64,000 nt of DNA, taken from Lumbricus terrestris (taxonomy: Eukaryota; Annelida; Clitellata; Crassiclitellata; Lumbricidae). The stretch covers positions 4,863,826 through 4,927,825 of the forward strand of contig OX457043.1 in the NCBI GenBank assembly GCA_949752735.1, in the 5' to 3' direction. The notes under the pieces are model-generated. The model was given only the letters and a program-made list of their open reading frames with translations, had not been told where the DNA came from and did no database searches. The position numbers and the translations under genes were made by a program. Every line of letters begins with the position of its first letter. The stretch's first letter is position 1. Positions 6,498 to 57,130 of the stretch are shown piece after piece.

Positions 6498-6507
6498 TTA
6501 GGCCTAC

Positions 6508-6583
6508 CTGATGAGGCTGCATCTGAAATCGAATTCAGGTTGGCTGCCGAAATGGCTATCAACAGGAACAGTCCGATGACCAT
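6508..6583 (-). CDS. Gene 1 signal-peptide exon
   Basis: ATG at 6583 opens 25 codons plus one base, beginning MVIGLFLLIAISAANL, a hydrophobic secretory leader. The exon ends CAG at a GTAGGC donor (phase 1). It joins the acceptor at 2092 in frame, making a Glu codon from G plus AG. The same exon occurs at 30817-30892 and 54395-54470 with few substitutions, which supports both the start and the donor. The donor intron carries a GGCCTA insertion not seen in the other two copies. Confidence 0.85.
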
Positions 6584-6682
6584 TCTGTCGTTTCAAGAGC
6601 TGTACGTCGACCAATCTTGCTGATCAGTGATCTGTTGACGACTGATGAAACGTTGTAGTCTGTTGTATGACGCAGCCGGGGA

Positions 6683-6690
6683 AATTTATA
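6683..6690 (-). promoter_or_regulatory. TATA box of gene 1
   Basis: TATAAATT on the minus strand, 107 bases upstream of the ATG. The box and a downstream 5' UTR word around GTTGTAGTC are conserved in all three signal-exon copies, so this is the likely core promoter. A conserved block around GAACACGTCAAAC lies a further 60-100 bases upstream. Confidence 0.7.
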
Positions 6691-7203
6691 GACATACGTT
6701 AGTCGTGGGGACTAGAAGTTTAAATAACCCAAACACATGGTGACAATTGATGAACACGTCAAACATAAATATCTCTCCTTGCTCTTTTTGAACTGTATTT
6801 TAGCTTCAGCCGGATAAGCCAATGTATGCTTAAAGGGCGGAGTTGCAAATGCTATTAAGACACTAATACTAACGTTAACTAAAATACGCAAAATAGCGTA
6901 ATTTCAATATGAAATTAGACCATAATTATACACTCTAGTCTGTGATCCTAATTGCCTTCGATGAATTTCCTGCAAATTTACTTGAAAAAATGTTGAGTTG
7001 TGAAGCTAAAAAGTATTATTTCTTTTCTTTCCCTTACCAGGAATGTAAAATAAAATAACATCCTACACCATGCTCGATAACACAGTAGTTATTTATAAAG
7101 TCTTTCCGCATCGTTTCACGAATGTACAGCGGCGCATTTATCTGTGCACGTATGTAAATACCACATCAGATCACATCTCTGTATCCGAGGCATGAACATT
7201 GGA

Positions 7204-7680
7204 TAGCTTATTATGTGTTGATGAGTGGTTGGATGGAAGTATATGAAGGATGGAGATATGGATAGATTACTAGTTCGATGATCAGAAGGATGGATGCATG
7301 CATGTATGAACGTATGAATGTAGAATGGATGGATGGATGGACGAAGGGTTGGAAGCTCTTGAATCAAGTTGAATGGATGGTCAATTGGCCGTAAGAAGGA
7401 AACAAAGGATTGCTGGAAGGTCATGTGGAATGACGGATGAATGGATCTATGAATAGATGGATGGATGGAATGATGCATAGTTGGATGGTTGGATGGTAAA
7501 TGGATGAGTTGGTGGGTGCACGAAAAATGGTTTTATGAACGGGCTGTTGAATGGATGGTTGGACGACTGGATGGCTGGATGGATTTCCTACGGATGGATG
7601 GATAAATGTATGGATGGATGGATGGATGGATGGATGGATGGATGGATGGATGGATGGATGGATGGATGGATGGATGGATA
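7204..7680. repeat. ATGG tetranucleotide microsatellite
   Basis: Imperfect then perfect ATGG units, with an uninterrupted run at about 7612-7678. A related array sits at the same distance upstream of the third promoter (54725-55310). Confidence 0.9.
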
Positions 7681-8734
7681 GGCTATTTGGAATATTGAAT
7701 GCGTCCTCATGTAGGGCCTAAGTTATTCTTACAATCGTGCGTCATTCATCGCATTTCATGTTCATCACACCAATTTAATTGAAAGATTCACTAGAATGCA
7801 AATCGTCCACACGTTCATTCATTCGTCCCAGTGAGGTTTCTAGAGCAACGGAAACTGCAAAGATTAAGATAGGCTACACTAATATGCTTAAGAGCTGTAA
7901 GAATATGAAGCAATAGATCTATGATTTTGAAATCTATGTCATGTCGATACTAGATTTGTAAAATATTCAATTCAATTTCAATGTTGTTATTGCATTCGTT
8001 TGTGCAGGCTAGTAGAAGTACCAGCAACAGCGATTGTGGAAGTAGCAGAGGGCGTGGCTTAAAAGTACTGTTCAGTCATCATCAGTAGGCTATCGTTTTC
8101 TTCTTTCTGTTGAAGACATTTATCGCTTTCCTATCTTTAGCCTACTATTTGAAACGAGAGAAGGCAATGCGTTTTTCTGTACAGAAATTACGTTAAGTAT
8201 GCTACAATGTTATCGCTGGACGATATGTTAAATTTGAATGTCAGTATGTTATATCTTTGCATATGAGTCTCCAAGGTCGGATGAACGGCAGGCCTAAGCT
8301 AAAATAATCTCCATATGGTGATCCAGCGACAACTTTATTTACGGTTTTCTCCGCCTTCAGGATTTCTATCCAATGCCATTGCATACAGCTGCTGACTATC
8401 ATCGACAAACGCAACGTCTTACTAAGATTACGACTACTGTGATTTAGGCCTAAACCGTTGAAAATGACATCGACTTCTAGACATTATTAATCACGAGTAA
8501 AACGTGGCGCTGATCGACCGTGTGATATGACAGTAAAATATTGGCAAAGAGCGGATCATAAATTTCGACGCAGACGGCTTACAGACTGAGGTAGCATGTG
8601 CATTGGCAATTACTTTCCTCACGTGCCTTGAGTCTCTCCTCTGATATCGGTATAGGCCAAATATGTCTAGGTATCCAGCCCTATAACCTGCTCGTGAGAG
8701 TAGTGATCGTAGTATATCATTGTACATGTAGCTG

Positions 8735-9050
8735 CAGTAGTGGTAGCTGTTGTTGAAGTATTGGCTGTAGTAGTAGTAGCAGGGCACCTACGGGCACTTG
8801 TCCCTCGGTTGATGATGAGTAGTAGTAGTAGTTTTAATAGTAGTAGTGCAGTAGTAGTTGTAGTAGTGGTGGTAGCAGTAGTAGCAGCAGCAATAGCAGT
8901 AGCAATAGCAGAGCAGTAGAAGCACTAACAACAGCAGCATGCCCTAGTATTAGCTGTAGCAGTAGAAGTAGCAGTGCTAATAGCACCAGTATTCGTAGCA
9001 GAAATAACTGATGCAGTGGCATTAGTTGCGATTATAGTAGTCGAAGGTCA
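8735..9050. repeat. AGT/AGC trinucleotide repeat
   Basis: Imperfect agtagtagt and agcagcag units over about 300 bases. Confidence 0.85.
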
Positions 9051-9466
9051 TCCTGTTCTAGTATAATTCAGTTGTAATATGGCGGGACTGCCAGTGGTGA
9101 GTGCCCATTGCCTAAGCGTCAGCGCTGATTAATTCCATCGGCGCTTATTAGGTCTGGTATTATAGTGTGACTATGATTATTAACCTGAAAACAGTTGGAC
9201 GCTTCCATGTAGAAAACTAATTAAAGTCTTTTCCACCTCCTTTGACATTATGACTTCGCAGTAATTATTACTAATGAATGAAATTGGACAATTTCAATTT
9301 CTGCAATTGATTTTGATGTATTAGTAGCAGTAGCCTATTTGACATTGAAATCAATTAATTATCACTTACACTTCAGGCTCTTTATATCGGATGATGACTA
9401 TTCTGCTGTAGCTTTTGCAGATCATTATCTTGTTTAATGGCGTTTCCGTGTTTTAATAATATCTTG

Positions 9467-9718: not shown

Positions 9719-10084
9719 ATTTCCTGCGCCTGCTTGCTCGCATGCAAGTCAATTGAAATTATTTACAGACAATAGGCCTATTCTAGCACTCTTGATTTTA
9801 AAACAGAAACTGGGACAGCATGACATTCTTTAAAGGACAAAGCTTGTAACTTACCTAAGGTCCTACTTACGGTTGCTCACTCAGGGCTGTGTTTAACATA
9901 ATTCGGTGCGGTGCACCGAATGCTCTGAGGCCTGAGCCGAGAGTTTTGTTCCTGCGTGTATTGGCCAAATGTCTTATGAGAGTGCAGCGAGTCTGAGTGT
10001 TAGGCCTACTTAGGCCTAAACCTTTTGTATGACAAGTAAGTGTAAGAAAAAATTAATTAAAAGTGTAACCACCATAAAAGTCCT

Positions 10085-10160: not shown

Positions 10161-10450
10161 GTAAATTTCTTTATGATATATAGGCCCACTTATTTACACG
10201 TGGCCGTAGCTTTTGGAAAACCAACGGCCGCTCGAAATACACTATGCCCCTGCGGTAACACTTTGCACCGACACTCGAGGAACCTTAAACACGACCCTGT
10301 GCTCACTATAGGCCTAAGCCAAAAGTTGTTGTCCTGCACACATAATATTATGTTATATCGATTTTGATCAACCATGTTGCTCCATCGCAATGACAAGCAA
10401 AATTTTTTGATGACGAAAACATGTGTTGCCATAATATGGCCAACTGCATG

Positions 10451-10521
10451 GAAAACTGCTGTTCAACGAGTAGGCCTAGGCTATATTATAGCCTAGGCCT
10501 ACTCGATGAGCAGCAGTTTTC
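10451..10521. repeat. 71-bp near-perfect palindrome
   Basis: Two 35-base arms around one central base (10486), with two mismatched pairs. The core is ctatattatag, flanked by aggcctagg. The arms can form a hairpin or cruciform. Confidence 0.9.
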
Positions 10522-10564
10522 AACACACGTGAGCACATAGGCTAAGCCACCTTGGTAAAGAGGG

Positions 10565-11424: not shown

Positions 11425-14400
11425 GCAAGGCAGAAAGTTATTCTTTCTTTAGGTCTTCTTTAGGTCTGCTGCCTCTCGGCAGGTCCAGATGCCCAACGAC
11501 GCCACTCTTCTCGGTGTTGTGCCTTTTCTTTAAGTTTCCCATATCCATCCTCCATCATCCAGTCCAAGAACTTTTCCCTCGGTCTTCCTCTTCCCCTCTT
11601 CCCCTCCATTTTGCCCTCCACTATGTCTCTTTGCAAGGAGTTGCCTCTCAGTATATGTCCCATCCAGTTCTTCTGCCTTGGTCTAATTGTATTCATCAAG
11701 GATCTTTCCTCTTTCACCTTCTTCAATACTTCTTCGTTTGATTTATGCTCTGTCCAGCTGACCCTTTCCATCCTTCTCCATATCCACATCTCGAACGCTT
11801 CTATTCGTTTGACATCCTCCTTTCTCATCGTCCAGGTCTCTGCTCCGTACAGTGTGACGCTCCAGATCAGTGCCTTGACCATTCTTTTCTTGATGTCTCG
11901 ATTCAATCCTCCTTTCAGTAGCTCCTTCCTTTTCGTGAACGCTTCTTTCCCCATCGCTATCCTCTTCCTGATTTCTTTGTGGCACTTCGCATCCTCCGAT
12001 ATTAGGCTTCCCAGATAGCAAAATTCAGTGACTTGCTCCACTTCTTCTCCATTGATTGTTATTTTCATATTCTTTTCCCCTTTTGCTTCTCTACTTATTC
12101 TCATTACTTTCGTCTTTTTGATGTTTATCTTCATCCCATATTCTTCGCTGGTTCTGTTTAGTTCATCCATTATGTGTTGTAGGTGCTCTTCTTTGTTTGC
12201 CAGCATTGATTGGTCGTCCGCAAATCTTAGCGCCTTTATCATCTTTCCTCCAATCTTTATTCCTTCTTCCGTGTCCTGTATTGCTTCCCGTATTAACTCT
12301 TCGATGTAAAGATTGAATAGTATGGGTGAGAGTGGACACCCCTGCCTCACACCTCTTCCTATTTATACCGGCTCCGATAGTTCCCCCTCTATCCTCACTC
12401 TTATCCTCTGTCCCATATACAGGTTTCCTATTAACCTTCTGTCTCTCCAATCCACTCCCATCTTCCTCAGGATTGTCATTAGCTTCCTCCAGTCTACCCT
12501 GTCGAACGCTTTTTCGTAATCCACAAAGCATATGTACACTTCTTGGTTGTTTTCCAGACTTCTTTCCGTTAGTATTCTCAAAGCTCCAATGGCGTCTCTC
12601 GTTCCTCTACCCTTCCTGAACCCGAATTGATCGTCTCCAAGACATCCATCTGCCTCCGCCTTTGCCTGCAGTCTCCTTGTCATCACCCTTAGCAGCACCT
12701 TCGAAGCATGAGTCAGCAAGCTTATCGTACGGTATTCTTCGCATCTTACTGCGTTCGCCTTTTTCTTTAATGGTATTAGTATTGTCTGCAGAAAGTCGTC
12801 TGGCCACATTCCAGTTTTGTAGATCTCCTGACAGATTTGGATCATTTCATTCATTGCCTTTTCTCCCAACTCCTTTAATATTTCCGCTGGTATGTTATCG
12901 ATTCCTTCAGCCTTGTTGTTTTTCATTTTCGCGATAGCTGCTATTATTTCCTCTTTCAATATTGCTGGTCCTATTTCATCCTCCTCCACCTCCCCCATCT
13001 CCTGATTTAACCTCGTGGGCCTGTTTTTGGTTTGGTAGAGGTCCTCTACATATTCCTTCCATCTCTCCTTTACTTGTTGGGGATCTTGTATCATTGCGCC
13101 ATCTCTATCCTGTACCCCAATTCCTCCATTCTGCATCATGTTCTTTGTAGTCTTTTTCACTATTTCATACATCTTATCATATCTTCCCTTCCTCTGTAGT
13201 TCTTCTATCTCTCTGCACTGGTTCTCCCACCATTGTTCTCTCGCCTTTTCGGTTGTTCTTCTTAGTTTGTTGTTTAGCCTTCTGTACTCCTTTTTCGCCT
13301 CTTCCGTGCTCTGATGCCTCCACTTTCTTCTCTCTTCCATTTCTCTTATCATTTCTCCCGTTATCCATGGCTTCCGTGGGGTCTTTCCTTTTTGGTACCC
13401 TATTGTCTCTGTTGTTTCCTCCACGATTATATCCCTGATATTTTCCCACCTTTCCTCCACCGCTGTTTCTTCACTTTGCTCTTGTTGTGTCCTCTCCACT
13501 CTGCTTTCAATTCTCTGCGCCAGTTCTATTCTTTTCGTCTCTGTCTTTATATTTTCTTTACCCCACCTCTTTATTGTCTGCGTTTTTCTTCTTATCAGTT
13601 TTAGGATTAGGTGGCTTGACATAGCTACTAGATTGTGATCCGTATCCGCATCCGCTCCCGGCATAGCTCTGGAGGTTTTTACACTATTTCTATATCTTTC
13701 TTTTACCATGATGTAGTCTATCTGATAACGTTTTTCATCACCCGGGGATTTCCACGTGTATCGTCTCCTCTTTTCCTGTTGAAACCATGTGTTTGTTATC
13801 ACCATTTTCTGTCTCTTGCAGAAGTCCACAAGCTTTTGTCCTCTTTCATTTCTTTTTCCCAATCCATACTTTCCTACACAATTTCCCTCTCTTCCCTCTC
13901 CCACTGATGCGTTCCAATCTCCCATCACTACTGTGTAATTCTTCCCTCTCGTCTTTCGCAGTTTTTCCTCTATAACCTCGTATATCTCGTCCACCTCTTC
14001 TTCCTCGCTTGTTATTGTTGGCATGTAGGCTACACCTGTACTATCTTGATGTCTACCGGGTGTGCTTTAATTTCCACCACAAGTATCCGATCTTTGTGGC
14101 TCTCAATTTTAGTCAGACATCCGGCTACCTTTTCATTTAGTAGCACAGCCACTCCACTTTGCCCATTTCTTTCTTCAGTATATATCGCTCTCACTCCCTC
14201 ACTCATGAAGTCTCCTCCGTCCTCCCATCTCACTTCTGACAATCCCAAGATATCTAGATTGGCTTTTCTCATCCTCCTTATCACATTTGCTAACTTCCCC
14301 GCTCTTCTCATTGTTCTCACGTTCCAAGTTCCGATATTAATCTTTTCCTTAACGGATTTCCTTTGGGTTCCTCTCGCTTCGCTCGTTTCACAAGGATTTC

Positions 14401-15370: not shown

Positions 15371-15517
15371 CGAAAGTTTGATTAAAAAAAATGAAATGCC
15401 GGCTCGCACATAGGCATTCCCTACCCGGTTTCATAGCATTGCCAGCCTTAAGCGCCTTCTTATTGGCAGATCCCAAATTATGAATATTCACAACCAATGA
15501 TGTCAGTGGCCTCGTTT

Positions 15518-15610
15518 TGTTTACAGATTACTGCGGTTAGCCGTTGGCAATATCAATAATATAATATATTATTGATATTGCCAACGGCTAACCGCAGTAA
15601 TCTGTAAACA
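15518..15610. repeat. 93-bp perfect palindrome
   Basis: Two 46-base arms pair perfectly around one central base (15564), running from tgtttacagattactgcggt to its exact inverse. No mismatch was found. Confidence 0.95.
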
Positions 15611-15614
15611 ATCT

Positions 15615-15659
15615 GTTGCCAGTTATTTAACCTATATTATAGGTTAAATAACTGGCAAC
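15615..15659. repeat. 45-bp perfect palindrome
   Basis: Two 22-base arms pair perfectly around base 15637, with core ctatattatag. It starts four bases after the 93-bp palindrome ends. Confidence 0.95.
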
Positions 15660-15867
15660 CTTTGCGTCCATTAATAGACTATATTATGGTAACTACCTGC
15701 TAAGATTTATAAAGTGCTTTAATAAATATATAGGGCCTACATCATACAGTTTTACATATAAGCTTAATGGAATAAGGTAACGCTGCGTGCTCTATTGATG
15801 AGTAATGGCAACAGGGTAACACTGGCGTTATTAGCAAAGCGCCTAATGGGACATCAACAAATGATGC

Positions 15868-16015
15868 AGTAATGTAATGTAATGTAATGTAATGTAATTA
15901 GAAATTTCTATAGCGCCGCTCACAACCAAGGCCATTCAGTAGCGCTCCCAGTGCGATAACCCCTAGAGAAAAAATAGGTCTTAAGAAGAGAGAGAGATGT
16001 AGATAACGATCCTGA
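15868..16015 (-). mobile_element. L2/CR1-type LINE 3' end fragment
   Basis: On the plus strand a tandem taatg tail is followed by tatagcgccgctcac and agtagcgctcccagtgcg, the inverse of the family terminus. Confidence 0.55.
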
Positions 16016-17019
16016 TGATGCAGTACCTATAACATAGAAGTAATAATAAAGAAGGCCTTTAATAGTAGGTCTAATGGGCTACGCAACACGGAAGCAATAA
16101 TAAAGTAGGCCTATAGCAATAGGCTATACATGAAAAGTAATGTAAAACAAATGCTGATAAGTGTAAAGCATGCGAGTAGTGAAATCCATTCTTGTGAGAA
16201 AGTCAGAACATGGAATTAGAAAGTCGTCGTGTTAACGTGGATGCAAAGTGCTCTGATTCATGATTCAACATATTTAAATTTGAATTATTTGAATGAAGGT
16301 AACTGTCACACTTAAATTAATAAAACTTTTACTTTATATGCAATCGCGCATGAATTGCACATAAAATTTTGAATGATTTTCACTAGAACTGAGATTGACA
16401 TGAACTACTTATAAGCTCAAAATATTACTGGCTATCGAACAGTAGGCATGGAAATGAGACAATTCATGAAACTGAATAATTCATGAGCTTTTAAAGTAAC
16501 AATGGGGAATGTGTGGAACGCTAATAATTTTCAACTGGTGCTGATTTACTGAAATCTAGTCAAATCTGATGTAATGAATTCTGCAGCACATTTTGATTTT
16601 TGGCTTTTGAATCATCGAAGCAGACGCCTGTTGCGTCACATAGCTGTTGAGCACGGTGCACTATTGAAGCGATGAGTTGGTCGATGACATTGTTCCCTGC
16701 AGGCACGCATGTAACAACGCGTAACTTTCTTAATTTATTTTGTGCTCTGATTAGAAGTCTATCTTCACACTTTTCGATTACTTCACGATCGAATGGCAAC
16801 TCGTTAAAACTCCAAGTCTAAAAGTATCGCAATCAGCCATTCCACCCCCCGTACGACAACAGCAGCAACAACAGCGCACGAGAAGGCGTTAGACACGTCA
16901 TTGGTTATGAATATTCATAATCAGGAGCCGGCCAATGAGAAGACGTTATGGCTGGTAATGCTATGAAATCGGGTAGGGAATGCCTATATGCTGCCGGTTC
17001 ACATAAGGGGCGTTAAGCC

Positions 17020-19640: not shown

Positions 19641-20448
19641 CAGTAGGTCGAGTAGTCTATGGTCTGCTGCCGTATGGCAGTAATTTTTTTGTATAACGTA
19701 GGCTACTGTCCTTGGTAGCTATGGAGCGTGATGATGTAAAGATTATGTGCGTTTCAATGTTTGCGTATGCGCCTGTGCGTTTGCTCTTGTCATGGCAAAC
19801 TCTGAACGTTTCTACTTAAAATGTGAGTCTAATAAAATTAATGTGTATTAAAGTTCATTCACTGAGAATGAACTTTAAAAGAAAAGGGACTATCTGAAGA
19901 CAGGAAATTTTATTCACTGAAATTTTATTCACTGAATACTCCAGATAGTGCTCGTACATGGTGATAATTATGTATAGCCTAGGTCTGCAGGTAGTAGGCC
20001 AAACTGCGACAGTTGGCCTACATGCTGCATTGGTGGTAGGCTACTGTTGCAGGGATTTCTGTGCGTGCAGTTATTCACAAAATTTGCTGTTCCATTACCA
20101 AATGTTTTCAGTTGTAGAAGTACTGATGTGCATTAGAAATAGTAAAAGGGTAATTGCGATCCGATTGCAAGTAGCCTAATTTACCTTGGAAGATGGGAAG
20201 AGAGATAAGAGGTCGCGCAGTTCTGTTCGAAAAGAAATCCTTTAAAAAAACCACGCACTGTGGCAGCAGTTGCTCTTACTTTGGTGGAAGCAGTGCTACA
20301 GTTCTTTAGTGGTATTGTATTGGAAATGATAGCCGTCGCAAGTTTATTAGTGCACATTTCACACCACAATTAATTAATTTTTGCTGATTCAAATAATTCT
20401 AATCGCACAATAAATCGCTGTCCATGTTGGAATTATAAAATAAATATA

Positions 20449-21650: not shown

Positions 21651-23199
21651 TATATTAGATAAACGGTTCTAGCACTAATCAGTGGCACAACTTCAAACGG
21701 TTTTACATGGTCGAACTTAGGCGGATCAACTGGCAGCTGCTGAGGAACCGAGCCTAATATGAAATGGTAGACATCGGCCAAAAATAGAACGAGTCCCAAA
21801 ACATGAGAAGCATCATAGTTTGGGTGCTCCATGATCATACCGAATGGTTTGACCTGTGAATAGTCATCCTCATAAATGGCAATAAAATAGACAAATTTTC
21901 TATGATCTATTCGAAGCAATGCAGCACACAGTACTGAATGAACGTTTATTAGCCTACAGTTGAAGCATATATTGCGCTACAGATGCGACTTTAAAGTCAG
22001 TGTCAAGCATACAAGTTTTGCGCATCTACGTAGATTAAAATAAAATACTCGAACCATAATAGTTATAGGCCTACGGTGATATTATTTTCTCCATGCGACG
22101 AGTAAGTTAATCTAAAAATTAAACAAACTTCAACAGAATTTACTGCTACATAAAATTAATAACACAGCTCTAAACCTGTGAAAAGTCACGCGAGCATTTC
22201 ACAGAAAATAAATTTCTATTCCAAAAGCGCGTGCTTCGAAATGTTTATGTTGTAGGCTACTACTGTCACGCCTAGACAAGAAGTGCAATAGCTGTCTGCA
22301 TCGCGCAGCCAATCCGGTAATCTTGGTGCAGACTTCCCAGGCCGTGCCTTATACGAAACTTGAAAGTTGAAGCACAGCAATACACTGATACACATTCCAA
22401 CTAGTCTACGCCAAACCATCAGGGAACACATGCCATGATTATGAGTGTATAACTGTATTATACTAAAAAAATCAGGGTAGACATGATTGAGTTCATTGAG
22501 CAGCATCTTGGTTGGGAATAGAAATTTATTTCTTTGCTGAATTATGCGGGCTGACTCAACGCAACCAGGAATTCAACCATGTTTCTTTTCTAAACGGCAC
22601 ATAACAAAGGAGGCTATATCAAGCAATAGGTTCACACGAACCCTGACAGAAAATTCAGAAATAATAGCTACACTGTCGTCTACAATTTTAATCATGGATT
22701 AAAGTCGTGTAGAGCCTATTTTTCTTGCAACTTGCAGGTAACTTACTGTTGTTAAGGTACGCGTTAAAAATCGAACGTTGCGACCAATCATGTAAGTGGC
22801 AAGCACCAGGCCTGTTTCAGTCTGCAAACGAAGCTGTTTCAGACACTTGCAATAGGCCTACTGTATATGACTTATGGGACCCACCGCATGTTGAATGATA
22901 GGCAAATTAAATTTAACAAGAGTACGAACAACGAAATAAACATACTATCTCCATGAAAATATCCAAAGCGCATAAATCAATAGGCTACTAAATGAACAAA
23001 GTATTTCATGCAAACTCGCGAAACCATCAGAGACTCACGACGAAACCAAAAGCGGGCATATTGGTACGTGTATGGAAAAAACGTATCGTTGAAAACATAA
23101 TAATTATGCGTCTGTAAGTCTAACGAAGCACTTATTTCACCCCCTTTTTTTTAGTCCAAGTGTAGTTATTTGAATAATTAGTCAAATTACAAGACTTCC

Positions 23200-25180: not shown

Positions 25181-25199
25181 CTGTATTAAAAATAAAACA

Positions 25200-25575
25200 C
25201 TTCCTTATGTTACAAGACTAGTGCAGGTAGATTAAAACTATTGAAGGTGGATTATTGGATACGTGTGCTTTCTGTTTCCTGTTTGTGCTACTGCGTCTGT
25301 GAATCCTGCAAGTGGGTGCGTCGCCTCACGGGAAGTTTTTATATAATGCGTGTTTGCGTGTGTGTTCTTGTACATAATTATGTGTGTGCGACATGTTTTT
25401 TGTGTGCTATTTGTGTGAGTTTAGATAGTGTGGCTTCTCTCGTGTTTGAGTGTGTCGTTGTTCTCTGTACATGTTAATTTTGGCATCTGTCGGCGACCAT
25501 TTTTTATGGGTCCAAATCGTGGGTCATCGAGTCGTAGACGCGTTATAGTGTGTTGTTTAGCGTTGATCAGTCAAT
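25200..25575. other. Start of gene 2 intron
   Basis: GTG-rich low-complexity sequence (25300-25480) like that upstream of the silk-like exons; no gene. Confidence 0.4.
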
Positions 25576-35965: not shown

Positions 35966-37654
35966 TCATCATCATTATTATTAGAATGGCTCGAGTGGGA
36001 GCATTGTGGCAGTAATAGCCTTAATTGTTGTGGTAAAAGTAGTGCTAATTGTAGCTTATTGTAAATTACAGCAGTGATAGCATCATTAATGCACATTTTG
36101 TACCAAAATTTGTTGACTGAATTCAATTTTTTTGCATAATGAATTGCTGTCCAGTTTTGCAGTAGCTGAAAAAAGTTGCAACATCATCCAGTGCCTCAAT
36201 TTCTAACAACTTTCAATGGTCAAGCTTAGATGAGAGAGGAGAGACTTGGGAATAGGCAGCATACATCGGTCGACAATTATTATAGACCCTGTAAACATTC
36301 CTGAAACATGATCATCAACACATTTTATTTGCTCCATATCGTACCAAAGTATATAAGCTAAAATACAATTGTGGATAGCCTCCAACGAAAATAGTAATAA
36401 AATGAGAATCTTTGCACGATATAGACTATTCGATGCGATGCAGCACAAAGCACTGAAGAAATGTTTATAATAGGCCTAGTTCAAGCTATATATTGTACTA
36501 CAGATACGACTTTTAGAGTCAGTGAGTGTCAAGCATACAAATTTTGCACATCTATTTAGTTTAAAATAAAATATCAGAACCTTACACGATGATATTATTT
36601 TCTGCCTGCAATCCGAAAGAAAATTTAAAAATAAAATAACATTTATCAGAAATTGCTGCTACATAATTTAACGTAAATCTACTCCAGTGGAAATCCAGCC
36701 TCGCATTTAACAGAAAATAAAATTGATATCTGTTGCAAAGCGCGTGCTTCGAAAAGTTCATGTTGAACATTTCTTACAACTAGTCCACGGATTTCTATTA
36801 GTCCCTTAGTTTCTTATAATAGTCTCTGCATCGTGCAACCGATCCGGGAAGACAGTTGCAGATTTTCCAGGCCGTGCCTTATACGTAAGTTTGACGATAA
36901 AGCACAGCAAAACACATTACAACTAAGGCTATATAATAGCCAAATAGGAATACATGATTTTGAGCGCAATGTAAAATTTACAAGGTAGACCTGTTTTCAT
37001 TGAGCAACGTTCAACTTTTTACTGGATCATATAATATTGACACAAGGCAAGCAGGATCTCAGAATTTTTTTGTCTAAAGTACAGATCACAAAGTAGGCTT
37101 AAACAAATAATCACTATCACTGGCAGAAAATATAGAAATAATAGTTACGCTGTCAGCCAAAAAAATTTAATGAATAAAAGTCGCGCCAATTCCTTGCTGA
37201 TAAGTCAAAACGTTGCGTTTTAAGAGACAGGACTAGGTCAGTTTCATTAAAGACCGCAGGGAGAGCACGGTAAACGACTATTATATTCACAGGGCGATGG
37301 ACAGGTAGATAAGGAGAGCTACCACAAGAGAGCGGTCGACGTGTGCCAAGAGCATCGCCTGAGATATAAGTCAAGACACTAGCAATATATAGCTTATTTT
37401 GAAAGAAATGTATTTAAACAAGCGTTTTGAAGATGAATTAGACATACTATGTCTAAAAGCAAACAATTGAAATATGGACAAATACAAAGCGCATAAAGAA
37501 GTAGGCCTAAAAAATAAGCAAAATATTTAATGCAAATCGCGAAAATATCAGAAACCCAATAATACATAGCTAAGACAGAGCACGACTATATGCGCATGGG
37601 AAAAAAGTCTTCGTCGACGACATACATGTATTTGTCGAAGCATTGAACCTCTTT

Positions 37655-40488: not shown

Positions 40489-40539
40489 CTGTAGTAGAAA
40501 TAAAACACATTCTCGTGTCACAAGTAGTGTGAAACTGTT

Positions 40540-40929
40540 GAAGGCGGGTTTCTAATAATATGCATGTTACGTGCGCGTGTGCGTGTGCGCGCGCGTGTGT
40601 TTTTTTAAAAGCGTTCAATATTAACTATAGTCAGTGCTATTCCTTTTGATATGTGCAACCTGTGGTGGTAGGATATCCGTAATCGTATCCGTAGTCTCGA
40701 AATATCTACAAACCCACAAATGCGAAATCTCGGGAACCAGTTTATTCACCGGCGATAAATAAAAACCAAATCGACAGGCAGAGGATCAAGATCCGGAAAG
40801 TCAGGCAGGCAGAGAGACGGACGGCTGAGGTAGGTGATGTTTAGAGTTGAAATGACGAGGGAGGCGAGGAGAAGTGGATTTGAGTTCGCACGATGTTCAG
40901 ATATTTGACTTAAAACGGGGTGGCGGGAG
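40540..40929. other. Intronic side of copy A, nothing recognised
   Basis: GC/GTG-rich tract (40560-40605), then sequence identical apart from scattered changes to 48680-49078. Confidence 0.5.
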
Positions 40930-42818: not shown

Positions 42819-44988
42819 ATTACCGGGTACCCATAGAATTGTAAGGTCCTACTCTGACTTTAAACAATTAACACGAGCATACATACCAAAAAACTCACAA
42901 TTATAGTCTTGCAGAAATTAATTGTCGTCCAGTCTTGTTTTTATTACATTTGGTGTTGCTGTTCCACCGACGACCATTATTATTGTTGATCTGCCAGCAT
43001 CTGAGGCGTACCGTATACGTGGATTACCTAGCTTGCGCTTAAAACTTGAAGCGGACAAAGATGAAGAACGTCTGCGACTGCACAACAACTGCAGTAGTTC
43101 GTTCTAGTGGCAGTTTGTAGTGAGGTCTGCGGTTGTTATTTATCATTATGGTTATATTATGGTTATATTAAGTAGGGCCTATGGTCCCATGGTAACTATG
43201 GGACGTGATGATGCAAAGGCATATGCTCAATAATGTAGGATACGTTTCAATGTGTGTGTGTGACTTTGTTTGTTTGTTTGAGTGCACCTGCACGTAATAA
43301 AACCTAAATCTTTGACTTCGCGTTTCTAAAGAACTATTTGGACGGTAAACGTTTTAGAGTCGATCCGCAGATACAAAGTGACTGTCTCGAGATAAGAGAT
43401 TTTACTCACTGAATGCTCCAGCGAGTGCCATTATTATAGTACAGTTACTGAAGTGATTCAGTTACTGAAGTAGACCTAACTGTGGTAGTGTTTGATTGAG
43501 AGGTTGCATCGTGGCAGCAACGGCCCAAATTGTTGTGGTAAAAGTAGTGCCAACAGTAGCCTGTAATTGCAAATTACAGTAGTCTCAGCTTTACTAGTGC
43601 ACATTTTTTACCACCATTTGCTGACGCGAACCATTTTAATTCCATAATGACGCGCTGTCCAGTTTTGCACTAGCAGGAAAACAGTTACAACACTAACCAG
43701 TTTCAAAATTTCTAACAGCTTTCGATGGTCAAGCTTAGGTGGGTCAACTAGCGAGGGTGGGACAAGCGGAACTTGGGAATAAGCACATTAAGCAGCAGAC
43801 AAATTATGCCGACAATATAAAAAGTCCAGAAACATGACCAGTAACACATTTCATTTGCTCCATATCAGACCAAGGCTATTAGGAAACAAATGAGAATATT
43901 TGCAGTTGAAACATATATATTGCGTTACAGATAGGCCCTACAACTTTTACAGTTAGCGTTAAGCACACAAGTTTTGTGCATCTATGTAGTTTAAAATAAA
44001 ATATCAGAACCTTACACGGTGATATTATTTTCTGCATGAAATCAGAAAGTAAATTTAGAAATTAAATTAAATTCATCGGAAGATACTGCTACATAACAAC
44101 GCAACTCTACTCCAGTGGAAATCCGGCCTCGCATTTCACAGAAAATGAAATAAACATCTGTTGCAAAGCGCATGCTTCGAAAAGTTCACGTTGCACATCT
44201 GTTACAACTAGTCCACGGATAGTTCTCTGCATCGTGCAACCGATACGGGAAGACTGCTGCATACTTTCCAGACTGTGCCTTATACGTGAGTTTGACGATA
44301 AAGCACAGCAAAACACATTACAACTAGACCTATTATAGGCCTATAATAGTGATATGGAAACACATGATTATGAGCGTACTGTAAACTTTAGACCTGTGTT
44401 CATTGGGCAAAATTCTGCCATCAAATTTTTTACTGGATCATACGAATTGACACAGTGCAACCAGGAACTCAAAACTGATTTTGTCCATTATGCGAAGAGC
44501 AAAGTAGGGTTTATCAAATACCTAATCACAAGCCCTGGCAGAAAATACAGAAATATAAGTTACGCTCTCACCTACAAGTTTTTAATGGATAAAAGCCGTG
44601 CCTATCCCTTGCAAGATGTTGATAAATCAAACGTTGCGTTATAAGTGACAAGAACCAGGTCAGTTTCATTAAGAACCGTAGAGAGAGTATTTTAAACGAG
44701 CATATTTGAGACACTTGCAATATAATTATAGCATATGTATGTTGAAAGAAGACAAATTAAACAAGCGTGCGGCGATTACATTGTTAAATATACTGTCTCT
44801 ATAGCAAGGAATGGACATCTTCACAAATTCAAAGCGCATAAAGCAGTAATGAATGAAAAAATATGTAATGCAAAGCCGACAAAATATCAAACACCCTCAA
44901 ATATATAAATAAGACAAAAGCATGCATATTTGCACATGAGAAAAACGGTTTCGTCGACACCATCAATGCCAAAACATTCAACCTCTTT

Positions 44989-47900
44989 TCACCATTTTTT
45001 AGTCCAAGAGTAGGTATATGCATAATTACCCCCGTTACCAGAATTTCCTCCGTTCCCTGCATTTCCAGAACTTCCCTGGTTACTCCAGTTATTATTATAT
45101 CCTCCTCCGCTGCCACCACTTCCTCCTCCTCCACCTCCTGATCCTGTACCACCGCTCCATCCTCCTCCACCTATTATTCCGCCACTGCCTGGTCTAATAC
45201 CACCGCCCACCTCCTCCACCGTTGCCTACTCCTCCTATGCCTTGTCCACCGCCACCTGAAGATCCTCCTCCCATTCCGACACTGCCATGACCACCGATAC
45301 CTACTGATCCTCCTCCTCCTATTCCGCCACCGACTGATCCTCCTCCTCCTATTCCGCCACCGACTGATCCTCCTCCTCCTATTCCGCCACCGACTGATCC
45401 TCCTCCTTTTATTCCGCCACCGAATGATCCTCCTCCTCCTATTCCACCTCCTACTGTTCCTCCTCCTCCTATTCCACCACCTACTGATCCTCCTCCTCCT
45501 ATTCCACCACCGATACCTACTGATCCTCCTCCTCCTATTCCACCACCGACTGATCCTCCTCCTTTTATTCCGCCACCGAATGATCCTCCTCCTCCTCCTA
45601 TTCCGCCACCGACTGATCCTCCTCCTCCTATTCCGCCACCGACTGATCCTCCTCCTCCTATTCCACCACCTAATGATCCTCCTCCTCCTATTCCACCACC
45701 GATACCTACTGATCCTCCTCCTCCTATTCCGCCACCGACTGATCCTCCTCCTCCTATTCCACCACCGAATGATCCTCCTCCTATTCCACCACCTACTGAT
45801 CCTCCTCCTCCTATTCCGCCACCGACTGATCCTCCTCCTTTTATTCCGCCACCGACTGATCCTCCTCCTCCTATTCCGCCACCGACTGATCCTCCTCCTC
45901 CTATTCCACCACCTACTGATCCTCCTCCTCCTATTCCGCCACCGACTGATCCTCCTCCTTTTATTCCGCCACCGACTGATCCTCCTTCTTTTATTCCACC
46001 ACCGACTCCGCCATTGCCTGGACCATACCCTGTTCCTCCTCCACCGGTCCCTCCTCCTCCTCCGCCATTGCCTGGACCATACCCTGTTCCTCCTCCACCG
46101 GTCCCTCCTCCTCCTCCGCCATTGCCTGGACCAAACCATGTTCCTCCTCCACCGGTCCCTCCTCCTCCTCCGCCATTGCCTGGACCATACCCTGTTCCTC
46201 CGCCACCGGTCCCTCCTCCTCCTCCGCCATTGCCTGGACCATACCCTGTTCCTCCTCCACCGGTCCCACCTCCTCCTCCGCCATTGCCTGGACCATACCC
46301 TGTTCCTCCTCCACCGGTCCCTCCTCCTCCTCCGCCATTGCCGGGACCATACCCTGTTCCTCCTCCACCGGTCCCACCTCCTCCTCCGCCATTGCCTGGA
46401 CCATACGCTGTTCCTCCTCCACCGGTCCCTCCTCCTCCTCCGCCATTGCCTGGACCATACCCTGTTCCTCCTCCACCGGTCCCTCCTCCTCCTCCGCCAT
46501 TGCCTGGACCATATCCTGTTCCTCCTTCACCGGTCCCTCCTCCTCCTCCGCCATTGCCTGGACCATACCCTGTTCCTCCTCCACCGGTCCCTCCTCCTCC
46601 TCCTCCGCCATTGCCTGGACCATACCCTGTTCCTCCTCCACCGGTCCCTCCTCCTCCGCCATTGCCTGGACCATACCCTGTTCCTCCTCCACCGGTCCCT
46701 TTTCCTCCTCCGCCATTGCCTGGACCATACCCTGTTCCTCCTCCACCGGTCCCTCCTCCTCCTCCGCCATTGCCTGGACCATACCCTGTTCCTTCTCCAC
46801 CGGTCCCTCCTCCTCCTCCGCCATTGCCGGGACCATACCCTGTTCCTCCTCCACCGGTCCCACCTCCTCCTCCGCCATTGCCTGGACCATACCCTGTTCC
46901 TCCTCCACCGGTCCCTCCTCCTCCTCCGCCATTGCCTGGACCATACCCTGTTCCTCCTCCACCGGTCCCTCCTCCTCCTCCGCCATTGCCTGGACCATAT
47001 CCTGTTCCTCCTTCACCGGTCCCTCCTCCTCCTCCGCCATTGCCTGGACCATACCCTGTTCCTCCTCCACCGGTCCCTCCTCCTCCTCCTCCGCCATTGC
47101 CTGGACCATACCCTGTTCCTCCTCCACCGGTCCCTCCTCCTCCTCCGCCATTGCCTGGACCATACCCTGTTCCTCCTCCACCGGTCCCTCCTCCTCCGCC
47201 ATTGCCTGGACCATACCCTGTTCCTCCTCCACCGGTCCCTCCTCCTCCTCCGCCATTGCCTGGACCAAACCCTGTTCCTCCTCCACCGGTCCCTCCTCCT
47301 CCTCCGCCATTGCCTGGACCATGCCCTGTTCCTCCTCCACCGGTCCCTCCTCCTCCTCCGCCATTGCCTGGACCATATCCTGTTCCTCCTCCACCGGTCC
47401 CTCCTCCTCCTCCGCCATTGCCTGGACCAAACCCTGTTCCTCCTCCACCGGTCCCTCCTCCTCCTCCGCCATTGCCTGGACCATGCCCTGTTCCTCCTCC
47501 ACCGGTCCCTCCTCCTCCTCCGCTATTGCCTGGACCAAACCCTGTTCCTCCTCCACCGGTCCCTCCTCCTCCGCCATTGCCTGGACCAAACCCTGTTCCT
47601 CCTCCACCGGTCCCTCCTCCTCCTCCGCCATTGCCTGGACCATGCCCTGTTCCTCCTCCACCGGTCCCTCCTCCTCCTCCGCCATTGCCTGGACCAAACC
47701 CTGTTCCTCCTCCACCGGTCCCTCCTCCTCCTCCGCTATTGCCTGGACCAAACCCTGTTCCTCCTCCACCGGTCCCTCCTCCTCCTCCGCCATTGCCTGG
47801 ACCAAACCCTGTTCCTCCTCCACCGGTCCCTCCTCCTCCTCCGCTATTGCCTGGACCAAACCCTGTTCCGCCTCCACCGGTCCCTCCTCCTCCTCCGCCA

Positions 47901-48621
47901 TTGCCTGGACCAAACCCTGTTCCTCCTCCACCGGTCCCTCCTCCTCCTCCGCCATTGCCTGGACCAAACCCTGTTCCTCCTCCACCGGTCCCTCCTCCTC
48001 CTCCGCTATTGCCTGGACCAAACCCTGTTCCTCCTCCACCGGTCCCTCCTCCTCCTCCGCCATTGCCTGGACCAAACCCTGTTCCTCCTCCACCGGTCCC
48101 TCCTCCTCCGCTATTGCCTGGACCAAACCCTGTTCCTCCTCCACCGGTCCCTCCTCCTCCTCCGCCATTGCCTGGACCAAACCCTGTTCCTCCTCCACCG
48201 GTCCCTCCTCCTCCTCCGCCATTGCCTGGACCAAACCATGTTCCTCCTCCACCGGTCCCTCCCCCTCCATTAAAACCCGGTTGAACGTTCCATCCACCAC
48301 CAGCATGAAAGATTACTGGCACTCCCCAACACGTACATTTTCTGTCACCTTTACCAAATCCGCCTCCCATTAAATTTCCACCTGCCCCGGCCAATCCCCC
48401 TGCCGCAGTACCAGCTAAACTTCCTACTGCGGGAACACCGGAGATTGATCCACCTCCTCCCAATCCTCCGCCAAATCCTGGAAAGGATCGCTTCGATCGT
48501 GACCGGACAGAGACATCGAGTCCGACATCCGCTCTCACTGGAGACCTTTTCTTGCGTGCAAAGATGCTGGCTTTGAGTCCCGCGTCTACTGCGAGATTTC
48601 CAACTTCGTGGATACTGTTCT
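44989..48621 (-). CDS. Gene 3 silk-like Gly-rich terminal exon, copy B
   Basis: Acceptor and propeptide as in copy A (SPVRADVGLDVS, SRSKR). Then an Ala/Gly block, GDRKCTCWGVPVIF, Gly-Trp and more than fifty GPGNGGGGGGTGGGGTG units. N-terminal units mostly end in Phe, C-terminal units in Tyr, with a few His. A block of IGGGGSVGGG units (45290-46010), absent from copy A, follows. With the signal exon the continuous frame is 1167 residues, ending at a TAG at 45194. The conserved tail (YNNNWSNQGSSGNAGNGG...YSWTKKW, stop at 44989) is in another frame; one base near 45205-45215 separates them. So either the protein lost its tail or there is a sequence error in a G run. The nearest upstream signal exon and promoter are at 54.4 kb, intron about 5.8 kb. 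The codons are mostly GGA/GGT, giving a purine-rich coding strand. Confidence 0.75.
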
Positions 48622-49078
48622 CTGTAGTAGAAATAAAACACGTTCTCATGTCACAAGTAGAGTGAAACTGTTGAAGGCGGGTTTCTAATAATATGCATGT
48701 TACGTGTGCGTGTGCGTGTGCGCGTGTGTGCGTGAGTGCGCGCATTAGTGTTTTTGAAAGCGTTCAATATTAACTATAGTCAGTGCTATTCCTTTTGATA
48801 TGTGCAACATGTGGTGGTAGGATATCCGTAATCGTATCCGTAGTCTCGAAATATCTACAAACCCACAAATGCGAAATCTCGGGAACCAGTTTATTCACCG
48901 GCGATTAATAAAAACCAAATCGACAGGCAGAGGATCAAGATCCGGAAAGTCAGGCAGACAGAGACACGGACGGCTGAGGTAGGTGATGTTTAGAGTTGAA
49001 ATGACGAGGGAGGCGAGGAGAAGTGGATTTGAGTTCGCACGATGTTCAGATATTTGACTTAAAACGGGGTGGCGGGAG

Positions 49079-49652
49079 TTTCACGACAATAATTGTTCTA
49101 CAGTCTAACGACAACTCGGGTACAGACAATTGGTCTTAGGACAACTGGTCTACATACGACTCGTATTGATGAAATGGACGCTGGATTTATGAAAAAAGTT
49201 AAATGGTTTTCTAGCTTAAATGGAAGCTGGATTGATGATTTTCATTCATATATTTCAACACGAATCCAGCTTCTACTTCAGATCTAAAAATACCTTCTAT
49301 TTCTCGCTCGTTATTTTCGTCAATCCAGCTTCTATTTCAGATATAAAAATACCCTCATCAGGCTTACATTACTTAAGCGTTTTTCATCAATCCAGCTTCT
49401 CTTTCAGATCCATAAATACCTTCATTCAGCTTTTTCTCATGCGTTATTTTCGTCCATCCTGCTTCTATTTCACCTGTAAAACAACCTTCATCCAGATTCC
49501 ATTTCTCTTGCGTTTTGTCATCAATCCAACCTCCATTAGGCCTACACCTGTTAAAAGCTTTCAGCCAGCTTCCATTTCTCAAACGCTGGACCAGTTGCCT
49601 GTAGACCGGTTGGCGTTAGACGAGTTGTCTGTAGACCAGTTGTCATGACACC
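49079..49652. mobile_element. Foldback-type element, copy B
   Basis: Counterpart of 40930-41530, with the flanking gtggcgggag word and the same internal units. It has a TAGGCCTA insertion at 49537-49544 that copy A lacks. Confidence 0.6.
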
Positions 49653-50894: not shown

Positions 50895-51098
50895 TATAGC
50901 ACCCCTTCAAGCTCCCTACACTGAATCGCGCCCGCCTGTAACAGCGCGGACACTGCATCGGAGTTTCACGCGGAAGCGCTGAACAATTGCGAGTGAGGGA
51001 CTTGCCCTAGGTCCCTACGCTGCGATTTGATTAGAACCTGCAACCCTCCGGCTGCAAGGCAACGAACATACCAGCTAAACAACCGCACCCCACGAGTG
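50895..51098 (-). mobile_element. tRNA-derived SINE, complete copy
   Basis: Minus strand: tRNA-like head (ggttgtttagctggtatg), box B-like ggttctaatc, body gcgtagggaccta, tail ttgaaggggtgctata. Same family as 4548-4790. Confidence 0.7.
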
Positions 51099-51116: not shown

Positions 51117-52575
51117 CAGGGTGGACCAGCATAAATGTAGCGACTTTTAATGCGCATAACTCAGCAAATTGTTGCAATTTATTTATACTTAATGCTTCAA
51201 ATTAAAGCTATTTCACTCTAGTATTAGCCTCAAAAAGTCGTACTGGTACTCGTTTAAATTTTACTGCAATGTTTGGAACGGCCTTAGCTACCATATTTTG
51301 TTGTTATCAGTGACGCAATATGGCGCCGTTTACAGACGATGATCGAGTTTTGATCAGAATTTTGCGAACTGATAAAGGATCATTTTAGTTCGTTTTCAAA
51401 TGATTAAAGACTTTCCTAACAGATGATGAAACGAAAGTATCTTGAATTCGTATGATACGAAAAACTGATTAAAGAGGAGCTTCGAGTCGTAAACCGCGTG
51501 AGTCGGTGCGCGCCGCGCGCACGCCCGCTACCGTAACATTGCTTTTGTGTCCGATTTAATTTGCAATCAAGACGATAACCATGCAGGTAAAAAGCAAATG
51601 TCCACTGGAAATTCAACGCAAAAACATGCATTTCTAGAAGCACTGTAAGTCGTATTGAAAATTCAAAGATGACCTGGAGTTGAAGACATTATTTTGGTTG
51701 ACTTAAGTGACTTAAGTCTAGTGTTGTTTTAATAATGCCCCAATTTTAGTTTTAGTTTTGGTTTTGATTGTTAGTCCTAATGTTTAGTTTTAGTTTTAAT
51801 TGTTGCTGAATATTAGTTTTAGTTTTCGTTTTAGTTTTTATGGATCAATTTTAGTTTTAGTTTTAGTATGCCAATTTTAGTTTTAGTTTTAGTTTTAATA
51901 ATCTGGGGCTACGCACTCGTTAGCAGTGAATACCGTTTCGTTTCTTGAACAAACTAAATTGATACAAATTAATACGAAGATATGCTGAACATGAAAAGTG
52001 ATCATTATGTGAGATGTCATTTGCTGTTGATGTGCCCAATTGATAAACACTTCAGCATTATGCTTAATAACTTTTTATGGAACTAATAATATTACAACGA
52101 TAGGGTAATATGTAGGCCTAATTGTCCATCAGTTAACGAATACAACACTACTTAAGTCCAACAGCTTCCCGACACTGACGCAAAGACATGTACGGCTTGC
52201 AGCATGCAAGCGTCAGATGCAACGCATGACTGCTGATAAAATTGAAAGCACATGGTTTAACGATTGTAGAAATTCTCCGCCGTGAATATCCATTCACGGC
52301 ACAGACTTCAACAAACACAAAAACGTGATCGTGCCTATGCTCGTGTTGGCAAAACAAGGAAAACAGCGCTATATTGCGTAGCCAAAAACAACAAAATGTG
52401 ATGACTAGGGCTGTTCCAAACATTGCTTTAAAATTTAAACTTGTATCAGTTAGACTTTGAAGCTGATACCAGAGTTAGCCTAAATGCCTTTAATTTGACA
52501 CATTAAGTAAAAAATTACAAATATTGACTGAGTTATAAGCATTGAAAGTCGGTCCATTTATGTTGGCCCACCTTG
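51117..52575 (+). mobile_element. Tc1/mariner-like element with transposase scraps
   Basis: Left end TA-CAGGGTGGACCAGCATAAA and right end TTTATGTTGGCCCACCTTG are inverted, with inner matching arms (gacttttaatgc / gcattgaaagtc). From 51320 the plus strand reads MAPFTDDDRVLIRILRTDKG, and around 52190 RLAACKRQMQRMTADKIE; both fit Tc1/IS630-type transposases. The catalytic centre is lost. A tttagtttt low-complexity tract (51735-51900) fills part of the gap. Confidence 0.65.
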
Positions 52576-53640: not shown

Positions 53641-53644
53641 TTCG

Positions 53645-54470: not shown

Positions 54471-54566
54471 TCTGTCGTTTCAAACGTTGTGCGTCGACCA
54501 ATGGAACCGAGTGATCTGTTGACGGCTGACGAAACGTTGTAGTCAGCCGTAAGGCGCAACCGGAGA

Positions 54567-54574
54567 AATTTATA
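54567..54574 (-). promoter_or_regulatory. TATA box of gene 3
   Basis: TATAAATT on the minus strand, 104 bases from the ATG, in the block shared by all three genes. It is the only promoter of this type between 37 and 57 kb. Confidence 0.7.
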
Positions 54575-54724
54575 GATTATCGTAAGGGGCGGACGAATAG
54601 CAAACGAATCGCATAGAAGTCAAAATTACACAAACATGAGGCGCATATTGATGTATATGTTCTGAACACGCCAAACATATATCTATTCTTGCTCTTTTTG
54701 AGCTGTTTTCAGCTTAAACCAGCC

Positions 54725-55312
54725 TAAGCCAGATGGACGAACAGATGGACGGATGGATGGATGGATGGAGGGATGGATGGGTTATCAGTTGCTTGGTTAG
54801 AAGGATAGATGGATGATGAATAAACATATGAATGAAAGTACATAAGTATGTATGAAGAATGGATGGATGGATGGATGGATGGATGGACGGACGGATGGAT
54901 GGACGTATAAATGGATGGATAGATGGGTGGGTGGATGGATGGGTGGGTGGGTAGATTGATGGATGGATGGGATGGATGGATGGACGTATGAATGGATGGA
55001 TGGATGGGTGGGTGGATGGATGGGTGGGTGGGTAGATTGATGGATGGATGGGATGGATGGACGTATGAATGGATGGATGGATCAATGGATGGGTGGGTGG
55101 GTGGATGGATGGACGAAAGGAGGTTCTGAATGGATGGCTGTATGGCAGAAACAAGGGATTGCTGGAAGGACGTGAAGAATGACGGATGAATAGATGAATG
55201 GATGGATGATTGGGATAATGGATGGATGGATGGATGGATGCTTGGGTTAATGGACGGATGAATGAATGAATGAATGAATGAATGAATGAATGAATGAATG
55301 AATGAATGAATG
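54725..55312. repeat. ATGG and AATG tetranucleotide arrays
   Basis: Long imperfect ATGG/GTGG region with internal ~115-bp higher-order copies (around 54890 and 55000), then AATG x13 (55258-55312). Confidence 0.9.
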
Positions 55313-55920
55313 AATTTGTTTATTGCACTCAAAAAGTCAAACGGTACAACCAAAATAAATAAATACAATAAATACAGTGCAATAGGAGTCAGGAAAAGCT
55401 AATAGTTTATACTACCCTGACCCCTCTTCCTTGACTATTTTCATACATGCTATTATTTCACTCAACTAGCACATAACTGATGAAATTACTAGTGAAAAAC
55501 ATAACATGAAAATAATAGAAATAAAACAATAATAAAAATAATAATAATTATAGTAGTAATACCAAGAAAATATTAGAAAATATTAGTGCAGCAGTATATC
55601 AACTCAATCCATATTGATATAAAAGACAGCAGAAAAGCATCATAATCAACAGTCTGTTAAGGAATACTGACATACAGATTGCCTAGATACTGCGAGTGGA
55701 AAGATGCATGCATAAAGACCAAATAGTTAAAATCAACTCTAGCATAGTTTAAAAATAAAGCCTTTATGACTTTTTTCTTGAAGGTACAGTAGGCCTACTT
55801 AAACTATTTTTCCTCTTCACATCATCTGATAGTGAATTCCATAAACGACGATTTAGAATTTGGAAGCTATTAAAGCGACAGGTGGTGCGAGCAAAAGGAA
55901 CAACATGATGAATCGATTAA
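55313..55920. other. LINE-like A-rich stretch, unassigned
   Basis: Begins tttattgcactcaaaaagtcaaacgg, like the 3' end of an invertebrate LINE in inverse orientation, followed by tgacccctcttcc. No coding frame is intact enough to assign a family. Confidence 0.35.
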
Positions 55921-56124
55921 TTGATGGATGGATGCTTGGATGGACGAACGGATGGATGGATTGACGAAGGGATGGAAGGGTGTACTAAGAATGGATGGAT
56001 GGATGGTTGGATGGATGAAATAGAACATGTTAGTCATTCATACACTAACTCATGAATCACAGCAATTATTTTATTTTAATGACTCTCTACGATGCAAATC
56101 ATCGATCAATGGTCCGTTCTACAG

Positions 56125-56375
56125 GGTGGGCAAAAAAGACCCCCTCCATTGGCCTCCAAATTTTTTGCAAATATCTTGGCTAGAAGTAAAAATTTCAAAA
56201 GATTTCAAATAGAACAAAAGTTTTGTTCTGTTTGAAATAGTTGAAATATTTTCATGAAATTTAGCCATCTTGTGCAAATTATAAATTGTCTTTAAGCCTG
56301 TAAAATTTAATTTCAAAATTATTACTTCTGGCCAAGATATTGGCAAAAACCTTAGGTTTTTTCGCCCACCCTATA
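56125..56375. mobile_element. Tc1/mariner-like MITE
   Basis: Ends TACAGGGTGGGCAAAAAAG and TTTTTTCGCCCACCCTATA, with inverted inner words (aatatcttggctagaagtaa / ttacttctggccaagatatt). The interior resembles the 61197 element. Confidence 0.75.
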
Positions 56376-57130
56376 GTGTGCGTGGAAGTAGTGATCTGAA
56401 TTCGATTTGTAATCGAATCGGAATGCGCATTCTTGTCAATTTGAACATTGTATTCGCAGTGGTACAGTAGTTTTAGCAACGGCGGTCGTTTTGGTAGTAG
56501 CAGTAGATGAGGTGTGGTATTGGTTGTCGTTGCTTTATCATCGTCATTATCGTTTTATTCTTTTTCCGCAATAATATTCCTTTCATTTATATTTGAAACG
56601 AGAGAAGACAATAATGCCCTGTGACTTTTAAAACAGAAATTTAGTTGAGCACTGTGTTATACCTGGGCTTCATCTTGAGGCTGAATGACAGTAGCCCAGG
56701 TCTATATTTTCACAGCATTCTTCAAGGGCCGGTGAACACCAACGCAATGAAGTCACAAGATGGCGCACTATGACTAGTTTATTTACGGCTTCCCTGTCTT
56801 CACGACTTTCCATCCAATGCCGTTGCATACAGCTGGCTAACCACGGCTAACGAAGCGTCTTCCGAAGGTTACGATTTCTAAGATTTAAATCCTTTCAAAA
56901 CTGACACCAACCGCTCAGTACTATTAATCACGAGTAGGCTATAACGTGGCGCTTATCGATTTTTGACATTGCAACAGACTATTGGTGGGCCTGTAATCTT
57001 AGGCCCTAAATGGTAGGGTCTGGCGCAGACGACTCTAGACAGAGGCAGCATGTGCATTGGAAATTAAATCTCGTCTCGTGTCTTCGCTGTCTCCACTCTT
57101 CACTGATATATTCCTATAAACAGCCATTTC

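Follow-up and report, generated by a model that had tools for sequence, protein, structure and literature searches.

The 64-kb stretch of the Lumbricus terrestris assembly analysed here as a whole (C9:4863826-4927825; hereafter the window) contains a locally duplicated family with long repetitive frames on the minus strand at 90-2210, 24255-25217, 37655-40624 and 45194-48763. These frames share a common basic stretch, SRSKR, and encode glycine-rich or tandem-repeat proteins, and their flanks are the paralogues compared in this study. The same stretch is rich in the palindromic octamer TAGGCCTA and its close variants, which the initial annotation had interpreted as scars left at TA dinucleotides by an excising transposon. 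Other stretches fetched from the same assembly, which comprises 1,056,305,194 bases in 331 contigs, were used as additional sister copies and are designated by L-numbers (e.g. L009, L055 and L056).

Abundance and forms of the octamer

There are 33 copies of the octamer TAGGCCTA in the window, compared with 0.69 (standard deviation 0.77) in 100 shuffles, and TAGGCCTA is the most strongly enriched palindromic 8-mer there (47-fold). Genome-wide, 354,398 copies were counted, compared with 8,418 for the same letters read backwards as a control. The close variants are enriched as well, as had been annotated.

The forms of the motif were counted in 303 kb of fetched sequence and compared with a second-order expectation. 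Enrichment was found for TAGGCCTA (95 vs 3.3 expected), for TAGGCTA and TAGCCTA together (146 vs 26.9) and for the nine-mers TAGGGCCTA and TAGGCCCTA together (14 vs 1.4), which amounts to an excess of about 223 scars over expectation. Nine-mers were enriched when their third base was G or C, and those with A or T in that place were found 3 times with 1.8 expected. No enrichment was seen in this sequence for forms consisting of G only or C only, neither TAGGTA and TACCTA (101 vs 116.6) nor TAGGGTA and TACCCTA (9 vs 24.4), nor for TAGGGCCCTA (0 vs 0.1) or TAGCTA (61 vs 54.2). The motif thus needs a G part as well as a C part, and the proposed composition of one to three G and one to three C applies to the enriched forms but fails for one G joined to one C.

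The base preceding the TA of a scar is G at a frequency of 0.34, compared with 0.18 for all TA dinucleotides, and T at 0.20, compared with 0.31; A or G precedes about two thirds of the scars. Insertion has also recurred at or beside existing scars, with 26 gaps of less than 50 bp where random spacing gives about 7, some of these pairs being part of tandem repeats or of a palindrome. Such a palindrome, nearly perfect with 52-nucleotide arms at 81% identity, lies at 10434-10538 and carries TAGGCCTA scars within both arms.

The one-substitution neighbours of TAGGCCTA numbered 112 in sum, with 67 expected, alongside 89 intact copies, and individual neighbours ranged from 0.3 to 4 times expectation; this count includes L002, L003 and L006, which overlap L001 and L005 and were dropped from later samples, so that some sites were counted twice. 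If these neighbours are decayed scars, the mean divergence of a scar is roughly 6% per site.

Insertion at paralogous and repeated sites

Two alignment tests were applied to the sister copies. In the anchor test (329 kb), 12-base anchors flanking each motif were located and the length between them in the sisters was scored, and in the net-difference test (321 kb) the fetched stretches were aligned against one another and the commonest difference to the sisters was scored. Both take in the motif sites that have a well-aligned sister, a small share of the motifs present; the choice between tied modal sister states was arbitrary, and 7,500 bases of the sample were N.

In the anchor test, the sisters most often had exactly two nucleotides at 15 of 27 motif sites (3/7 TAGGCCTA, 9/17 seven-mers and 3/3 nine-mers), compared with 166 of 19,519 control 8-mers. 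The net difference equalled the motif length minus two at 4/8 TAGGCCTA, 7/20 seven-mer and 2/4 nine-mer sites, against a background of 127 of 24,097 8-mers with +6. The other TAGGCCTA sites gave +4, +7, +1 and +5, the other nine-mers +1 and +8, and the other seven-mers 0 at four sites, +7 and -1 at two sites each, and +9, +1, +6, +3 and -4 at one site each. TAGCTA behaved differently, with a net difference of 0 at eight of nine sites, -6 at one and +4 at none. Among the indels, AGGCCT was the most frequent of 6 bp (5/76 sites) and AGCCT was the joint or sole most frequent of 5 bp (5/64 sites).

A main sister of the same length was found at 0/8 TAGGCCTA and 4/20 seven-mer sites, a single scar shared by a recent duplication accounting for two of the four, and therefore an origin mainly by point substitution was not seen; substitution is a minor source of the motifs. 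The motif mostly arrives as an inserted unit, with the net gain expected of an excision footprint. At sites with several sisters it is often the minority state, e.g. at L009:7772, where a single copy carries it against 28, and at L012:2226, with one against four; the insertion is therefore the derived state at those sites.

Most of the eight paralogous pairs that had been proposed in the window show an insertion, several with qualifications. The scar TAGGCCTA at 6499..6506 faces TA in its two sisters, the 30.8- and 54.4-kb copies, TAGGCTA at 56935..56941 (+5) faces TA in L056 as well as in the 8.5-kb copy and TT in the 31.6-kb copy, and TAGGCCCTA at 43932..43940 (+7) faces TA in the 36.5-kb copy and in L055 and TG in the 22-kb copy. 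At 22853..22860, the TA opposite TAGGCCTA in the 44.7-kb copy is supported but lies in a weakly aligned stretch, and at 8445..8452 the scar TAGGCCTA is supported if one further one-nucleotide change is assumed, the net difference to the 56.9-kb copy being +5. The insertion of TAGGGCCTA at 43173..43181 (+7) is confirmed, but the empty copy has TC rather than TA. In the recent duplicate that carries TAGGCCTA at 49537..49544 (+6), the empty copy has TT, as annotated, with flanks otherwise identical over about 120 aligned bases. TAGGCTA at 8086 was not confirmed as an insertion of this kind, the sister copies differing there by about two nucleotides; these paralogues have their scar at 8138..8144, a TAGCCTA that L056:5953 also carries and the 31.7- and 56.5-kb copies lack.

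Further sites were found in the window. Two copies of TAGGCCTA ten bases apart (10001..10018) are both absent from a relative in L023. TA is the sister state of TAGCCTA at 20172..20178 (in L011), of TAGGCCTA at 37502..37509 (in L055 and the 44.7-kb copy) and of TAGGCTA at the matching place, 22981..22987 (in L055), and the sisters of TAGCCTA at 52476..52482 have GA.

Any two-nucleotide sister was found in the anchor test at 18 sites, where it was TA at 11 and AA, GG, TT, CA, GA, TC or CT at the others; at L007:1501 and in ties the two-nucleotide state is not the sole one, and L056:6259 looked different in the net-difference test. The statement that TA was the original in each case was therefore too strong.

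A short interspersed nuclear element (SINE), represented in the window by the copy at 50895..51093 on the plus strand, which has a putative tRNA-like part as judged by reading its bases, was used as a genome-wide yardstick. A consensus was built, a first look gave about 5,000 candidate copies, and a 32-base stretch between two anchors holds three TAs. Between these anchors TAGGCCTA was found at 14 places genome-wide, and the reversed control at none. By eye, scars were assigned to the first TA (C1:87833221, +6), to the second (C5:1550961, +6) and to the third (C10, +5, and C17, +6, the latter in two near-identical copies), and two +8 scars lie in a TATA context (C2 and C4). Off the TAs, one scar lies at GA (C1:68883041) and another at a variable C-n (C19). 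A third, whose original dinucleotide is ambiguous, is common to five copies (C7, three on C8, and C18) and was therefore inherited with the repeat. By this visual tally, about six events fall on the three TAs, and three fall among about 28 other dinucleotides. No scar was seen inside 20 copies taken from the best-scoring 40, a sample that is biased against insertions. Overall, there is good support for insertion that favours TA.

A second word behaves in the same way. Besides TATATATA, the only other strongly enriched self-complementary word of the form TAnnnnTA is TACATGTA (35 vs 5.1 in the 303 kb), with TACCGGTA, TAAGCTTA and TAATATTA at 3.5-3.8 times expectation. We take TACATGTA to be the classical Tc1/Tc3 footprint, and it therefore served as an internal yardstick. 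It is also an insertion, with +6 at four of five sites and a two-nucleotide sister at two of three in the anchor test, and forms of it shorter by one base show no clear enrichment in the 303 kb (40 vs 32). The copy at 37623..37630 gave +6 against L055 and +5 against the 44.7-kb copy, without a two-nucleotide sister in the anchor test; the word is also present at 8723-8730 and is iterated at L017:7158 as TACATGTACATGTA.

Proposed transposon excision and its rivals

Insertion with a strong preference for TA is supported by the window and by the other sampled stretches and, as far as one SINE shows, across the whole genome. The data also show the spectrum of scar lengths, the inheritance of scars and recurrent insertion at or beside them. 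For transposon excision, we infer the transposon as intermediate, its ends, and frequent hopping by an element that stays rare or has become extinct. A transposon with the termini 5'-GG(G)...(C)CC-3' would insert at TA and duplicate it, its excision would keep about two bases of each transposon end, and end joining would seal the break as TA-GGCC-TA, or with GGC, GCC, GGGCC or GGCCC if the join lost or kept one base more. The motifs would then be excision footprints of a TA-targeting, Tc1/mariner-like cut-and-paste transposon, which we consider somewhat probable; our confidence was lowered to this level because of the TAGCTA result and the sites lacking a two-nucleotide sister.

Several observations weigh against excision. 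A two-nucleotide main sister state was missing at 12 of 27 sites, and seven of the 18 sites with any such sister had no TA. Some loss of TA is expected in the sisters, many of which are 10-30% diverged, but the TT at 49537, with its near-identical flanks, and the AA at L009:7772, present in 25 of 28 SINE copies, resist this explanation. Independent trimming of the two ends predicts about 39 extra TAGCTA, and 7 were observed; the ends do not behave independently, and independent trimming is rejected as a misfit.

The search for an element with TA-GG...CC-TA ends, which had been proposed as a check, yielded no convincing candidate in about 303 kb. That sequence has two inverted-repeat pairs that are bounded by TA and end in GG (three by a looser test), none of them transposon-like, compared with about 223 excess scars. 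The pair at 15411/16986 was rejected as the source since its similarity to L056:8292 extends past the TA and its longest frame has 85 codons, L019:2696-4478 since its inverted repeat continues beyond the TA, and the third pair, at 57663-58514, lies within simple repeats. It is possible that the source is rare and busy, that it is extinct, or that it is no transposon.

Other features of these regions were recorded. The sequences at 15411-16986 are inverted, promoter-like and about 93 bp long, begin with TAGGCATTCCC and are related to one at L056:8292. A 68-bp unit is arrayed in both orientations at 57741-58404; these arrays meet near 57984-57993 and are related to those at 41.1 and 49.3 kb. A minus-strand frame at 60070-60624 has an HTH_psq domain like that of pogo-type transposases, its closest relatives being 100% identical over part of it and 63% over most. 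Two adjoining minus-strand frames with reverse-transcriptase domains at 11460-14066 are likely a non-LTR (long terminal repeat) retrotransposon.

The absent resident element and the non-TA sites would both be accounted for if no transposon were involved, and breaks at or near TA were filled in, extended by about two G at each 3' end by a terminal-transferase-like polymerase, and joined as TA-GG-CC-TA. Such tailing would also place GG on both 3' ends, but it leaves unexplained the parallel insertion class TACATGTA and the uniformity of the tails, with TAGGGCCCTA at 0 and G-only forms not enriched, and we regard it as unlikely. The non-TA sites could also reflect a different short insertion process, in which the whole octamer including its TA replaces a dinucleotide near TA, e.g. 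through an element carrying its own TA. The sisters with TT, AA, TC, GA and CA at net +6 or motif minus two and the GA and C-n sites in SINEs favour such replacement, whereas the TA at 11 of 18 sites, with sister divergence covering part of the rest, makes it rather improbable. A bolder proposal, which we put forward tentatively and hold to be doubtful, is that one transposon lineage bringing its own TA, or one break-tailing process, wrote several hundred thousand near-identical scars of net +5 to +7 into one genome with hardly any of its own copies left. The element would then be one that hops without growth, its scars far outnumbering its residents, and that turns targets close to TA, e.g. 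TT or AA, into TA.

Somatic excision of TA-bounded elements that are kept in the germline and removed in the sequenced body tissue would account for many seams without residents in the assembly. The scars look inherited, however, one being common to five SINE copies and one present in the two near-identical C17 copies, and one-substitution neighbours are in excess, as ageing scars should give; somatic excision is therefore quite improbable. The strong over-representation of one palindrome, which recalls HIP1 of cyanobacteria (PMC4390886), could suggest a selected binding motif, a methylation-related palindrome or an origin by point substitution, but all of these are very improbable given the lack of any same-length main sister for TAGGCCTA and the single-substitution neighbours at 0.3 to 4 times expectation. 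Addition of telomere-type units (TTAGG or TTAGGC) joined head to head is disfavoured by the depletion of T before TA. Of six 1-kb contig ends, the opening and closing 150 bases showed no telomere repeat. SINE insertion at non-TA sites with non-TA duplications, as described in part of PMC5801840, would give TT..TT scars and was rejected, TTGGCCTT-type words numbering 5 with 5.2 expected.

Related systems and significance

The preferred reading, excision of a transposon, can be set beside known systems. In Tc1/Tc3, the footprint TACATGTA leaves two bases per end between two TAs, and the same word is an insertion class here; their terminal CA..TG differs from the GG..CC of the earthworm scars, and TACATGTA is about a third as frequent as TAGGCCTA (35 vs 95).

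The Stowaway and Osmar5 elements, according to sections of PMC1925063, leave 1-4 bp of their termini next to TA on excision and reinsert at scarred TAs. They resemble the earthworm scars in both respects, in the short remnant of element ends enclosed by two TAs and in the re-use of the scarred TA, but their ends are CT..AG and their footprints are known from few loci, with resident elements, whereas here the ends would be GG..CC, octamers number in the hundreds of thousands and no source was found. Tc1/mariner footprints of 2-4 bp are cited in a passage of PMC7913693, and for rice mariners a passage of PMC4423477 gives insertions outnumbering excisions by about 2.6 to 1. Among the PHIS elements (Harbinger, ISL2EU and Pangu), many Harbinger and Pangu ends start with G or GG (excerpts of PMC4482050 and PMC4423477), but the target duplications given there, TAA/TTA, AT and ANT, would not yield TA..TA; these elements were rejected as the source of the TA-bounded scars. 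HIP1 is likewise a palindromic octamer iterated genome-wide (PMC4390886), whereas the octamer here arises by insertion. The internal eliminated sequences of Paramecium are TA-bounded and excised in large numbers (PMC3077386), but their precise excision leaves one seam, whereas here extra bases stay and scars are inherited with repeats.

Footprints as such are of a known kind; the novelty lies in their scale and in the missing source. Among the matches listed in the open-licence PubMed Central literature, which included 40 of the 182 papers containing the word, no title was found that has TAGGCCTA as a scar for its subject. In conclusion, the octamer phenomenon is real and far larger than the window, and transposon excision is its best reading, which we put forward with moderate confidence. 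If this reading is true, the earthworm genome records the departures of a cut-and-paste element at about one octamer per 3 kb, and a large source of short insertions has been identified. The target choice, excision and end joining of a natural transposon would then be measurable from sequence alone.

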